A stretch of DNA of 12,281 nucleotides from an uncultured Clostridia bacterium. Lineage in GTDB: Bacteria; Bacillota_A; Clostridia; TANB77; CAG-508. Below, piece after piece: positions 8,710-12,281 of the stretch. The notes below the pieces were generated by a model. The model was not told where the DNA came from and did no database searches. It saw only the letters and a list, made by a program, of their open reading frames with translations. Where the stretch lies: the NCBI GenBank assembly GCA_947588915.1, contig CANPZA010000033.1, forward strand, positions 1-12,281, written 5' to 3'. The first letter of the stretch is position 1. Every line of letters starts with the position of its first letter. The translations under genes and the position numbers were made by a program.

Positions 8710-8738
8710 TTGACAAAAAATATCAGAAAAGGTAAAAT
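8710..8738 (+). promoter_or_regulatory. Consensus promoter of the glucosaminidase gene
   Basis: TTGACA (8710-8715, perfect consensus) and TAAAAT (8733-8738) are 17 bases apart. Transcription would start near 8745, leaving only about 10 bases before the ATG at 8755, with AGGTGA (8745-8750) as the ribosome site. The TTG of the -35 box is in frame with the gene and can be mistaken for a start codon. Confidence 0.75.
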
Positions 8739-8754
8739 AATAATAGGTGATAAT

Positions 8755-10002
8755 ATGAGTGCAAAAGAAAAAGTAAAATTAAGACAAAAAATGCATATAA
8801 AAATTACATTAAAAGGTATAATTACTTTTTTGGCTTTTATAATTAGTTTATTATATGTTGTTATATTTTATAACTATTATTTTGTGAGAAATAATAGTTA
8901 TGCATATGAAACATCTTCTAATATTGAATTACCTAAAATAAGTAATGCACAAGAAATAAACTTAGAAGAGATTATAAGCAAAAATGTAATACAAGGACAA
9001 AAAGAAGAATATAGTGTTGAAGAAACTGTATTAGAATACATAACTAAATATAGAAATAATGCGAGTTTAGCAAAAGGAACAATTCAGGTTATTCAAGAGG
9101 GAAGGACTGGAAAACAAGAGATAACAACTAAAAGAACATATCAAAATGATGAAATAATTAAAGAAGAACAAATTTCATGCAAAGTAACTAAAGCATCTGT
9201 TGATAAAATAGTTGAAATTGGTACAGCAAATTATACAAATAATTATAAAGCAAAAGTTGGAGATACTTTATATGCAACTTCAGATAGATTATCAGTTATG
9301 TATGAGCCAAATGAACAATCGCAAAAAGTTGCAACCTTATCAAAACAAGATAAATTAAAAATAATGGAGATACAGGGAGATTGGTATAAAATATCTTCAA
9401 CTGGAGTAATTGGATATGTAAAAGCAGAAAGTACGACATATATAGATAATACTGTGAAAAAAGAGAATAATTCATCTGTTGGAACTAAAAGCAAAGCTGA
9501 ATTAATGTCAGGTTTTGGATTTGGTATGGCATTAAACAAGCCAAGTGGTTTAACAATAGAACAATTTAAAAAGATTTTATCAGATAGTAAAGACACAAAT
9601 AAAATTTTTGAAAATAATGCACAATATTTCTATTATATAGAAAAACAATATAACATAAATGGTGTTTTTGTAGCAGCAATCGGTATCCACGAAAGTGCTT
9701 GGGGAACATCTCAGATTTCTAAAGATAAAAATAATTTATTTGGATATGGTGCATATGATTCTAATCCATATAATGGAGCATATAATTTTTCAAATTATTC
9801 AGAATGTATAGACTTAATTGCAAGAGTACTAGTTAAATATTATTTGAATCCAAAGGGAACAAGTATTTATGGAGGAGAACAAGCAGAAGGTACATATTAT
9901 AATGGACCTACTTTAACAGGTGTTAATACAAGATATGCAACTGATAAAAATTGGGCAAATGGAGTATATACACATATGAAATATTTGTATAATAAATTGT
10001 AA
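8755..10002 (+). CDS. Membrane-anchored peptidoglycan hydrolase: G5, SH3b and glucosaminidase domains
   Basis: A 415-residue cell-wall enzyme. A basic N-terminus (MSAKEKVKLRQKMHIK) precedes one membrane helix (about 19-43) with no clear cleavage site, so it is probably anchored with its body outside. Next come a linker, a G5-like module (about 108-157, with the GTIQVIQEGRTGKQEIT segment and EIGT end), an SH3b module (about 165-226, LYATSDRLSVMYEP to GVIGYVKAE) likely binding the wall, and a C-terminal glycoside hydrolase family 73 type domain (about 265-415). The expected catalytic Glu is Glu313 in GIHESAWGTS, followed by the substrate-cleft motif NNLFGYGAYDSNPY. It should cleave glycan strands at N-acetylglucosamine during growth or cell separation. 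Start at 8755 is set by AGGTGA 4 bases upstream; extending to TTG 8710 would run through the promoter. It is a single-gene unit with its own promoter and terminator. Confidence 0.9.
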   Translation: MSAKEKVKLRQKMHIKITLKGIITFLAFIISLLYVVIFYNYYFVRNNSYAYETSSNIELPKISNAQEINLEEIISKNVIQGQKEEYSVEETVLEYITKYRNNASLAKGTIQVIQEGRTGKQEITTKRTYQNDEIIKEEQISCKVTKASVDKIVEIGTANYTNNYKAKVGDTLYATSDRLSVMYEPNEQSQKVATLSKQDKLKIMEIQGDWYKISSTGVIGYVKAESTTYIDNTVKKENNSSVGTKSKAELMSGFGFGMALNKPSGLTIEQFKKILSDSKDTNKIFENNAQYFYYIEKQYNINGVFVAAIGIHESAWGTSQISKDKNNLFGYGAYDSNPYNGAYNFSNYSECIDLIARVLVKYYLNPKGTSIYGGEQAEGTYYNGPTLTGVNTRYATDKNWANGVYTHMKYLYNKL

Positions 10003-10644: not shown

Positions 10645-12281
10645 ATGAAAGTTTTATTTGCTGTAAGCAATGAAGAGATATCAGAATCAATTGTAAAAAA
10701 ATATCAAAAAGAATATAAACAAATTATTTCATACAAGAATGTATATTACTTTAATGCAATATTGAAGGAATTACAAAAAGACAAAACTTATGATAGAATT
10801 GTTATAAGTGAAGATTTGGAGGCATTTACACATACTCAGTATGACCAAATTGACAAATTTATTTTTGAAAAATTAGATAGCATAAGTGATGAAGCATCTG
10901 ATTTAAAAGGAAATGATATACCAATCATTTTAATATGCTCTGATAGAAGAACAAAATCAGAAGGAATGCTTGTAAAGTTATTTGGAATAGGAATTTATAA
11001 TGCTATCATTGGAACTGACAGAAGTGTAGATGAAGTATGTAGATTAATAAATAGACCTCGTGCAAAGAAAGAAGCAAAATCATATTATAAAATTGATACA
11101 GAAGAAGTAAATTATCAAGCAGAGAGTGAAAATGATGTTAGTGAAATGGAAATTCAAAACATTGTTGCTCATTATAAAAGATTAGGAAAAAATGAAGACA
11201 GATATATAGATAGTTTTAATAATATAGCTGCACAATATAATGATACACAGCTAAGAATTATAACCAAATTTTTGCCATTAAATGTTAGAGCAGTATTAGA
11301 AGAAAGATCTCCAAAATATCAACAGATAATGTCTTTTAATAATAGTGTTTCTGACAGTTTGAGAAAAAGTAAAAATGAAGAAGATAGCGGACCAAGTCAA
11401 ATATTATTAAAATCACAAAATAAGGAGAGAATTCTTTCAAAGCCAGTTGTTATACCATCATCTGTTAATATGGGAGGAACAAAGAAATTAGCTAGACAAA
11501 AAGTAGAACAAAGAAAAGAAGACTCTATACAACAACAGCCACAATTACAAAGCAAACCAACTGCAAAGCAAGTAAATCGTATGGATGATTTTGAAGATGT
11601 AAAATCACAACCACAAGCTAGACAGGAGGTTATGCAAGAACCAATAATAGAAGGTTTTGAAGATTTAAATGAGCAACCTAATTATGCATCTAATGTAAAT
11701 ACACGACAACCACAAGCTAGAAGACAAGAGGTTATGCAAGAACCTGTAATAGAAGGTTTTGAAGATTTGAATGAACAATCTGATTATGCATCTAATGTAA
11801 ATACACAACAAACACAACCAAAACGTGGAAGAGGAAGACCAAGGAAAAATCCGATTGTTTCTAATGAAAATATGAATCAACCAAAACGTGGAAGAGGAAG
11901 ACCAAAAAAAGTTGTTGACACATATCAAGAAGGACAACAAGAAGAATTTATATTACCTGGATTAGAAACTCAAGAGACAGAACAAGTGGAGCCAGAAGAA
12001 GAATTTTTACCAGGATTTGAACCAGTAAATATGCAAACATCTCAAGATATACAATCATATAGACAAAATGAAACCAATCAAGAGGAAGATATAGTACTTC
12101 CAGGGTTAGAAGAAGAACCAGAAGAAATTATATTGCCAGAACTAGAACAAGAACCAGAATATAATAAAGAAAACTATTATACACAAAAACAACCAGAAAT
12201 ACAAAATAATAATTATCATAATTATAGCAATAATTATGATAACAATTATAATAATAACTATAATAATACTTATAACCCAAA
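10645..12281 (+). CDS. Partial gene: receiver-like domain with disordered, repeat-rich tail bearing AT-hooks
   Basis: Open from ATG 10645 to the window edge with no stop, at least 545 residues; the 3' end is missing. I do not recognise the whole protein. Residues 1-137 alternate beta strands and helices like a response-regulator receiver (MKVLFAVS, RIVISEDL, IPIILICSD, GIYNAIIG), but the usual acidic pair, phospho-accepting Asp and conserved Lys are not clearly in place, so it looks like a pseudo-receiver, as at the N-terminus of TadZ/CpaE proteins. A helical segment spans about 165-230. From about 240 on it is disordered: a tandem 33/34-residue repeat (322-388), two AT-hooks (KRGRGRP at 393-399 and 414-420), four LPGLE-type motifs (433-503) and an Asn/Tyr-rich stretch (from 521). 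No membrane segment is seen. Coupled to the upstream small membrane protein. A scaffold, regulator or DNA-binding role is inferred. Confidence 0.8.
   Translation, partial: MKVLFAVSNEEISESIVKKYQKEYKQIISYKNVYYFNAILKELQKDKTYDRIVISEDLEAFTHTQYDQIDKFIFEKLDSISDEASDLKGNDIPIILICSDRRTKSEGMLVKLFGIGIYNAIIGTDRSVDEVCRLINRPRAKKEAKSYYKIDTEEVNYQAESENDVSEMEIQNIVAHYKRLGKNEDRYIDSFNNIAAQYNDTQLRIITKFLPLNVRAVLEERSPKYQQIMSFNNSVSDSLRKSKNEEDSGPSQILLKSQNKERILSKPVVIPSSVNMGGTKKLARQKVEQRKEDSIQQQPQLQSKPTAKQVNRMDDFEDVKSQPQARQEVMQEPIIEGFEDLNEQPNYASNVNTRQPQARRQEVMQEPVIEGFEDLNEQSDYASNVNTQQTQPKRGRGRPRKNPIVSNENMNQPKRGRGRPKKVVDTYQEGQQEEFILPGLETQETEQVEPEEEFLPGFEPVNMQTSQDIQSYRQNETNQEEDIVLPGLEEEPEEIILPELEQEPEYNKENYYTQKQPEIQNNNYHNYSNNYDNNYNNNYNNTYNP
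11608..11808 (+). repeat. Tandem in-frame repeat of 99 and 102 bases
   Basis: Two adjacent units (11608-11706 and 11707-11808) encode QPQAR(R)QEVMQEP, then [I/V]IEGFEDLNEQ, then YASNVNT. They differ by one inserted codon (AGA) and a few substitutions, several of them silent. A partial older unit, DDFEDVK, lies just before. The close DNA identity indicates a recent duplication or ongoing unit gain and loss. Confidence 0.9.
11815..11905 (+). repeat. Duplicated AT-hook coding segment
   Basis: An identical 28-base stretch occurs at 11815-11842 and 11878-11905, a spacing of 63 bases (21 codons). Each copy encodes QPKRGRGRP, the core of the AT-hook motif that binds the minor groove of AT-rich DNA, followed by RK or KK. 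Confidence 0.88.
12205..12281 (+). repeat. Asn/Tyr-rich low-complexity coding repeat
   Basis: Short AAT-AAT-TAT type units encode runs of Asn broken by Tyr (NNYDNNYNNNYNN). The stretch continues to the window edge, so its full length is unknown. Confidence 0.85.

Follow-up and report, generated by a model that had tools for sequence, protein, structure and literature searches.

MinD and ParA are described, in a passage of PMC13246001, as one fold that works through different surfaces, at the membrane for MinD and at the nucleoid for ParA. TadZ, according to excerpts of PMC6668835 and, similarly, of PMC13189830, has an atypical Walker A motif, binds ATP and shows low ATPase activity. Here we analysed a window of 12,281 nucleotides (the whole stretch of DNA under study, contig CANPZA010000033.1 of an uncultured Clostridia bacterium), and the gene that runs off its right edge is, judging from its relatives, the cut-off front part of a TadZ/CpaE-like protein. 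We see nearly an even chance that this protein is an orphan TadZ-like anchor that has DNA hooks where relatives have a membrane tail and so links a complex in the membrane with the nucleoid; what it binds and does is inferred. Orthologues that keep their neighbours but carry either a membrane-like tail or DNA-hook-like motifs would offer a natural test of surface change. Moreover, the family would show that a TadZ-like protein has departed from the pilus and become near-universal in a Clostridia order, beside a regulator of peptidoglycan synthesis.

Domains, hooks and tails of the family

The window edge truncates the gene, whose frame is stop-free as far as it goes, and full-length near relatives with genomic context have 706–920 amino acids (aa). 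A protein search with residues 1–260 gave 6283 relatives among 7457 candidates, and the best 120 of these were used. Nine relatives were retrieved, seven of which (755–918 aa) continue after the linker into another conserved part, the third, with some 280 residues, and the remaining two (526 and 389 aa) end at the linker. When 13 long relatives (752–918 aa) were aligned, mean column identity was 94% in the N-terminal part, 28% in the linker (with gap-majority columns scored as 0) and 84% in the C-terminal part. Because the long relatives continue into a conserved C-terminal part, what appears to be a disordered tail is an internal linker. The first-pass annotation of this DNA had described more than 300 disordered residues as a tail; a low-complexity stretch of 300 residues with repeats is indeed present, but as a linker inside the protein.

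This linker is enriched in E, Q, N and P and contains two copies of the 17-residue repeat EVMQEPxIEGFEDLNEQ, KRGRGRP twice, and LPG(L/F)E three times plus LPELE, in agreement with the earlier proposal of several repeated motifs. In KRGRGRP, a GRP core with basic flanks (as RGRP, twice) has the form of an AT-hook. Among 122 full-length sequences, including three TadZ-type outgroup proteins, the hook motif was found twice in 88, once in 3 and never in 31. For background, contigs of the best 80 of 180 relatives (L001–L080) were scanned, 79 of which had a recognised main gene (near loci); the motif occurred in 0 of 1146 other open reading frames of at least 100 aa, the raw count being 1/1147 with the one hit in a family member (L065). 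The hook motif exceeds chance.

A tree of 119 N-terminal domains (L124, L125 and L138 stand outside it) needs one change for the hook label, and the clade with hooks (support 100/100) has them in 89/89 rows. At the C-terminus of most hookless proteins stands a basic tail with Leu and Phe: a strict pattern was present in 17/28 of them versus 0/90 proteins with hooks (shuffled means 1.2 and 1.6, respectively), and a looser pattern, devised after the sequences had been viewed, in 28/28 versus 2/90 (L071 and L126). These counts omit L056, where the gene is split in two frames, and the three outgroup proteins. Such a basic Leu-Phe tail resembles the membrane-targeting tail of MinD. The amphipathic membrane helix of MinD is described in a section of PMC13246001.

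Further genomes, selected for how strongly they matched and how long the frame was, without regard to motifs, contributed 40 proteins, six of which had an N-terminal part identical to an earlier one and were set aside (all with two hooks and no tail). Among the 34 unseen proteins, none of the 14 with two hooks had a tail by either pattern, and the 20 hookless ones had a tail in 8 cases (strict) or 17 (looser). In addition, a second basic Gly-Leu-Phe patch lies at the linker start in 7/28 hookless versus 0/90 hook proteins, and in L096, L097, L108, L110 and L118 linkers rich in Glu, Lys, Ala and Arg replace the hook-bearing one. The linkers of these five resemble long single helices or coiled coils; some hookless linkers are long and rich in Glu, Lys and Ala, and that of L124 is very long and acidic. 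The first-pass annotation had named a match to a well-known family whose members all have the tail as a result that would speak against it; the hook linker is instead restricted to one clade.

A model of the C-terminal part, built from 60 of 78 relatives' sequences (mean predicted local distance difference test score, pLDDT, 86.7), gave fold matches led by ParA, MinD, FlhG/FleN and BcsQ, with 3fkq from E. rectale among them. We take 3fkq to be the TadZ of that species. A title cited in PMC13189830 agrees with this assignment. The commonest P-loop of relatives is GTSKNGTSF. The position of the Walker A lysine is occupied by Thr, Val or Ile in all 115 rows that reach the P-loop, so that the deviant Walker A of MinD, KGGxGKT, finds its lysine in 0/115 rows, and the Lys three places before it and three Asp are retained in 115/115. 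With the Walker A lysine lost, nucleotide would be held statically, if at all, without cycling. Both lysines are missing in L124 and L125, which lie outside the 115 rows; in these two loci a tandem duplication places a copy consisting of the pseudo-receiver only (288–292 aa) before a long copy (1051–1354 aa).

The N-terminal part, modelled from an alignment of 63 sequences (the window and 62 of the 79 near loci), forms a receiver-like alpha/beta domain followed by helices (mean pLDDT 83.0), which bears out the helical segment noticed earlier. Foldseek and VIA-align matches to this model are led by receiver domains, CpaE/TadZ receivers included, although not above ordinary regulators. Phosphorylation sites were counted in 117 aligned rows, leaving aside L124, L125, L138 and the three outgroup proteins, with sites set from model strands instead of a superposition. 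In the acidic pair, Ser or Asn prevails at site 8 and Asn at site 9 (where 6 rows have Asp), site 56 is Glu in 117/117, site 98 is Cys, Ala or Gly in 115/117, and no row has Lys at site 122. Three sites speak against a clean loss of the set: Glu or Asp stands at site 10 in 110/117 rows, Asp (84 rows) or Glu (29 rows) at site 57, and Ser or Thr at site 99 in 89 rows. Hence, a shift by one place could restore part of the set, but never the Lys. As placed, then, the Lys and Ser/Thr of response regulators are lost and the acidic sites (Glu/Asp at 10, 56 and 57) are less clear; the claim of a receiver-like domain lacking its phosphorylation residues holds over the 117 rows, with some doubt about site placement.

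Kinship with TadZ was traced through a class-wide sample of 391 genomes with 21 matches, 18 strong and 3 weak (L099–L101); all 18 strong ones recur in the order sample described below. The weak three (417–537 aa) are TadZ-type proteins beside Tad-type genes: L099 adjoins an RcpC/CpaB gene, L100 adjoins an SAF gene and a T2SSE ATPase, and L101 has the same order by reading. Comparison of the N-domain profile with these three in hhalign gave 97% (E 1.1e-10). The pseudo-receiver and the likeness to TadZ that the first-pass annotation proposed to check are supported, CpaE/TadZ receivers being among the fold matches. AT_hook was the sole Pfam family reached by the main protein, below its cut-off, with residues 414–424 as the top stretch; PF00072 in the same search and NCBIfam had no match, and in the PDB neither the complete sequence nor the N- and C-profiles found anything above chance. 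The Pfam family TadZ_N was unmatched by the window protein and four relatives, but equally by two TadZ-type proteins of Tad-type loci and by the controls.

Gene neighbourhood and distribution

Table 1. Positions of the gene, its parts and its upstream neighbours in the window
Feature	Position	Strand	Basis or remark
TadZ/CpaE-like protein, 5′ part	10645..12279	+	ATG start, 545 codons, no stop; gene runs past the window
Pseudo-receiver domain, residues 1–139	10645..11061	+	model, fold matches, residue counts
Helical segment, residues 141–232	11065..11340	+	model
Low-complexity linker, residues 246–545	11380..12279	+	composition; internal in full-length relatives
Repeat copy 1, EVMQEPIIEGFEDLNEQ	11626..11676	+	
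Repeat copy 2, EVMQEPVIEGFEDLNEQ	11728..11778	+	
AT-hook-type motif 1, KRGRGRPRKNP, residues 393–403	11821..11853	+	conserved in relatives
AT-hook-type motif 2, KRGRGRPKK, residues 414–422	11884..11910	+	
LPG(L/F)E-type acidic repeats	11953..12147	+	at 11953, 12007 and 12097; LPELE at 12133
Small membrane protein, 136 aa	10231..10641	+	ends 3 bases 5′ of the main gene
G5/SH3/glucosaminidase wall hydrolase	8710..10002	+	Pfam

The order of genes in relatives is small membrane protein, main gene, degenerate GGDEF protein, IreB and RuvX, with DUF1292 also downstream. Neighbours were named by Pfam for L004 and elsewhere by BLAST to L004 and L093, and counts cover only loci with room on the relevant side; L065, where the start pattern was missed, lies outside the near set, the short paralogue L132 outside the neighbour counts, L131 has no recognised gene, and L056 was scored as a miss for IreB, RuvX, GGDEF and glucosaminidase. 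By reading, the small membrane protein starts with a segment resembling a signal peptide, and two hydrophobic stretches follow further on. Its gene lies within 300 bases in 77/79 near loci, as does a GGDEF-like gene with one transmembrane segment (also 77/79), and when distant loci were added it stood within 300 bases upstream in 117/118, the lone exception, L117, having a short open reading frame at that position. Downstream, IreB was found in 74/75 near and 36/40 more distant loci (110/115), and RuvX in 71/73 and 36/40 (107/113). The GGDEF-like gene is next in 76/77 near versus 18/40 more distant loci, and the glucosaminidase wall hydrolase is upstream in 53/67 near versus 4/36 more distant loci, L096 having a D-Ala-D-Ala carboxypeptidase upstream. 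In the membrane-anchored GGDEF-like protein of L001–L080, RYMGPKF replaces GGDEF in 77/77 near loci. The RYMGPKF protein is a conserved pseudoenzyme, and it matches three PHROGs of unknown function.

The first-pass annotation read the gene order as a hint of a type IV secretion or Tad-like locus continuing to the right. No VirB4, VirB11/CpaF, TadB/C or VirD4 gene lies next to the gene in the relatives' flanks, and a Tad or type IV secretion locus was rejected, since these flanks hold degenerate GGDEF, IreB, RuvX and DUF1292 genes, which make up a conserved group on the chromosome rather than secretion machinery. The annotation had itself named downstream genes unrelated to secretion or pili as grounds for giving up that hint, and these are what the relatives have. 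A phage origin was rejected as well (one IMG/VR scan gave no viral contig with a relative, and the main protein had no PHROGs match), as was a defence system, for which PADLOC gave no match. A promoter scan found 22 candidates versus 15.4 ± 4.3 in shuffles, not clearly beyond chance. Elsewhere in the window, a phosphofructokinase occupies two overlapping frames at 282–1428 on the plus strand (282–926 and 844–1428), which cover 1–172 and 173–276 of the 277 positions of its profile and indicate a gene frameshift or an assembly error.

The N-domain was found in 139/143 genomes sampled from the order of genome G004, nearly always in single copy, and in the phylum sample the sole match was the centre genome (1/149). 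In the samples searched, nearly all genomes of one Clostridia order have the gene, and it was not found outside that order. Candidatus Merdicola, the name of one among the 80 records, belongs to the GTDB order TANB77. A second, distant copy in G370 (L132, 4842–5957, minus strand, 371 aa) has no MinD-like domain, ends in a zinc-ribbon-like CPKC/CSDC part and lies near RecA-like and GroES/GroEL-like genes (by reading).

Pilus machines are encoded elsewhere in these genomes, as type IV pilus operons (L139–L141, named by reading) and as divergent Tad-like loci (L143, 10600–19797; L144, 6158–17563; L145, 636–13888). The absence of any Tad-like system was considered and rejected, since weak PF00437 matches proved to be one. 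A Tad-like locus codes for an SAF protein, a membrane protein of 691–699 aa, several pilin-like proteins starting MENA(S/A)KAL and, by reading, two small MinD/ParA-like proteins. Its T2SSE-like ATPase, about 650 aa long, has a membrane segment at the N-terminus and scores barely above the Pfam cut-off. The ATPase lies in two neighbouring frames (about 400 + 285 aa) in G003 (C1:86638–88579) and many other genomes, a split frequent enough to suggest genuine fission of the gene.

Such machines raise the alternative that the protein is a working TadZ acting in trans for a pilus encoded elsewhere, the candidates being the type IV pilus of these genomes and their divergent Tad-like system. The TadZ homology of the N-domain is consistent with this, as is the wide distribution of PilB relatives (122/143 genomes of the order, 14 of them weak with best E 5e-21 to 4e-7) and of Tad-like ATPase relatives (120/143, 5 weak with best E 4e-21 or worse). 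However, the Tad-like locus itself encodes two small proteins that read as MinD/ParA-like, and 13 genomes with only weak PilB matches keep the gene (11 of the 13 were retrieved, all hookless). Moreover, nine genomes picked because the PilB and/or Tad-like ATPase search had failed were tested with PF00437, and seven of the nine had no match above cut-off; six of the seven retain the gene (G178, G340, G375, G389, G402 and G422), and the seventh, G360, lacks it. An obligate pilus role was rejected on account of these six, and we consider service to a pilus in trans unlikely. Although the assemblies may be incomplete, G375 and G389 share a main gene duplicated in tandem, and both lack the machines.

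Proposed role and its alternatives

According to the reading that we prefer, the protein would be a TadZ-like anchor without its pilus. Its pseudo-receiver and helical segment are connected with a MinD/ParA-fold domain by a disordered linker that varies among relatives, and the protein would hold the small membrane protein at a cell site and, in the hook clade, the membrane-anchored degenerate GGDEF protein too. The hooks would grip AT-rich DNA and thereby tie the complex to the nucleoid, whereas in hookless members the tail would grip the membrane. A portion of PMC12077105 reports that IreB of E. faecalis controls peptidoglycan synthesis. The expected role would be to place or time a cell-envelope process linked to the IreB pathway, and since IreB controls peptidoglycan synthesis and wall enzymes are frequent upstream, envelope growth would be the likeliest such process. 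A more specific version seems possible, though we hold it with clearly less confidence: that one orthologous MinD/ParA-type family has exchanged its anchoring surface, a membrane tail for chromosome AT-hooks or the reverse, and that hook proteins are ATP-locked tethers between nucleoid and membrane, with the small membrane partner and the pseudo-GGDEF protein, serving envelope growth and not pili. The scaffold of the first-pass annotation, gathering partners or DNA around a membrane machine, survives in part: gathering is plausible because the repeats include two AT-hook-type motifs, but the relatives' flanks contain no secretion or pilus locus.

Several points weigh against the preferred reading. 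The C-terminal domain and the right-hand genes lie outside the window and were read from relatives (e.g. L002–L004); the receiver-fold matches are unspecific, with ordinary response regulators scoring equally; and the C-domain aligned only weakly with L099–L101 (hhalign, 25%, E 7.8e-4). AT_hook scores stay below the Pfam cut-off of 17.4 bits, at 16.6 in the window and 10.3–16.4 in relatives where given (four scanned), and hooks are not all that the linker keeps, since the 13 aligned relatives also agree fully in two pairs of Leu-Pro and in a few positions around residues 268–271 of P0001. The exchange of hooks and tails is one evolutionary split, so that the many rows do not add up to separate occurrences; with its midpoint root and long outgroup branches, the tree does not fix the direction of the exchange. 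Exceptions occur on both sides of the looser, after-the-fact tail pattern, with 3/20 unseen hookless proteins lacking it and 2/90 hook proteins having it. Finally, a common neighbourhood with IreB and RuvX is no proof of common function.

This last point also bears on a different explanation, that the protein mainly serves the IreB pathway of peptidoglycan synthesis as a regulatory scaffold, in which a signal passes through pseudo-receiver and degenerate GGDEF protein and the hooks do no more than concentrate the protein on DNA or control transcription. The steady presence of IreB and RuvX, the wall hydrolase upstream in most near loci, the carboxypeptidase of L096 and the invariant RYMGPKF all fit such a scaffold. 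However, the IreB, RuvX and DUF1292 genes are housekeeping neighbours and may be chance company, and the GGDEF-like gene is next in just 18/40 more distant loci, which makes this scaffold rather improbable. A general multivalent scaffold of the kind first proposed for this gene, or a condensate former, with motifs that bind proteins rather than DNA, is more improbable still. Several acidic LPGF-type repeats and the invariant Leu-Pro pairs would suit it, but across the 79 near relatives the number of LPGF-type repeats ranges between 0 and 12 while hooks stay nearly constant at two.

Comparison with described systems

Among the open-licence PMC papers listed, none was found that combines AT-hooks with TadZ/CpaE or MinD-type anchoring, which is weak evidence of absence; two that mention all these terms, PMC7349988 and PMC3347997, deal by their titles with chromatin supercoiling and with H-NS and Tn5. 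The closest systems are TadZ/CpaE proteins (3fkq of E. rectale and 4n0p, Caulobacter CpaE), which have in common with the family a receiver-like domain, a MinD/ParA-fold domain, an unusual Walker A and kinship of the N-domain. The present family differs in lying outside any Tad locus, in a long linker that bears AT-hook-type motifs, and in its place beside a small membrane protein (117/118 loci) and near IreB (110/115).

With MinD, the family has in common the fold of the C-domain and, in most hookless relatives, a MinD-like basic C-terminal tail. Unlike MinD, it lacks KGGxGKT and has extra N-terminal domains, and the hook clade has no MinD-like tail save in 2/90 by the looser pattern. A separate MinC is also present in 16/22 genomes tested, and replacement of the Min system was rejected on this count. 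AT-hook proteins have the same RGRP core with basic flanks, twice, but in this family the motifs are embedded in a TadZ-like protein and score below the Pfam cut-off. ParA/Soj proteins again have the C-domain fold in common. ParA proteins typically bind DNA nonspecifically, as stated in a passage of PMC13246001, whereas in this family two AT-hook-type motifs within the linker make up the DNA-binding-like part, and ATP hydrolysis by the P-loop is not expected.
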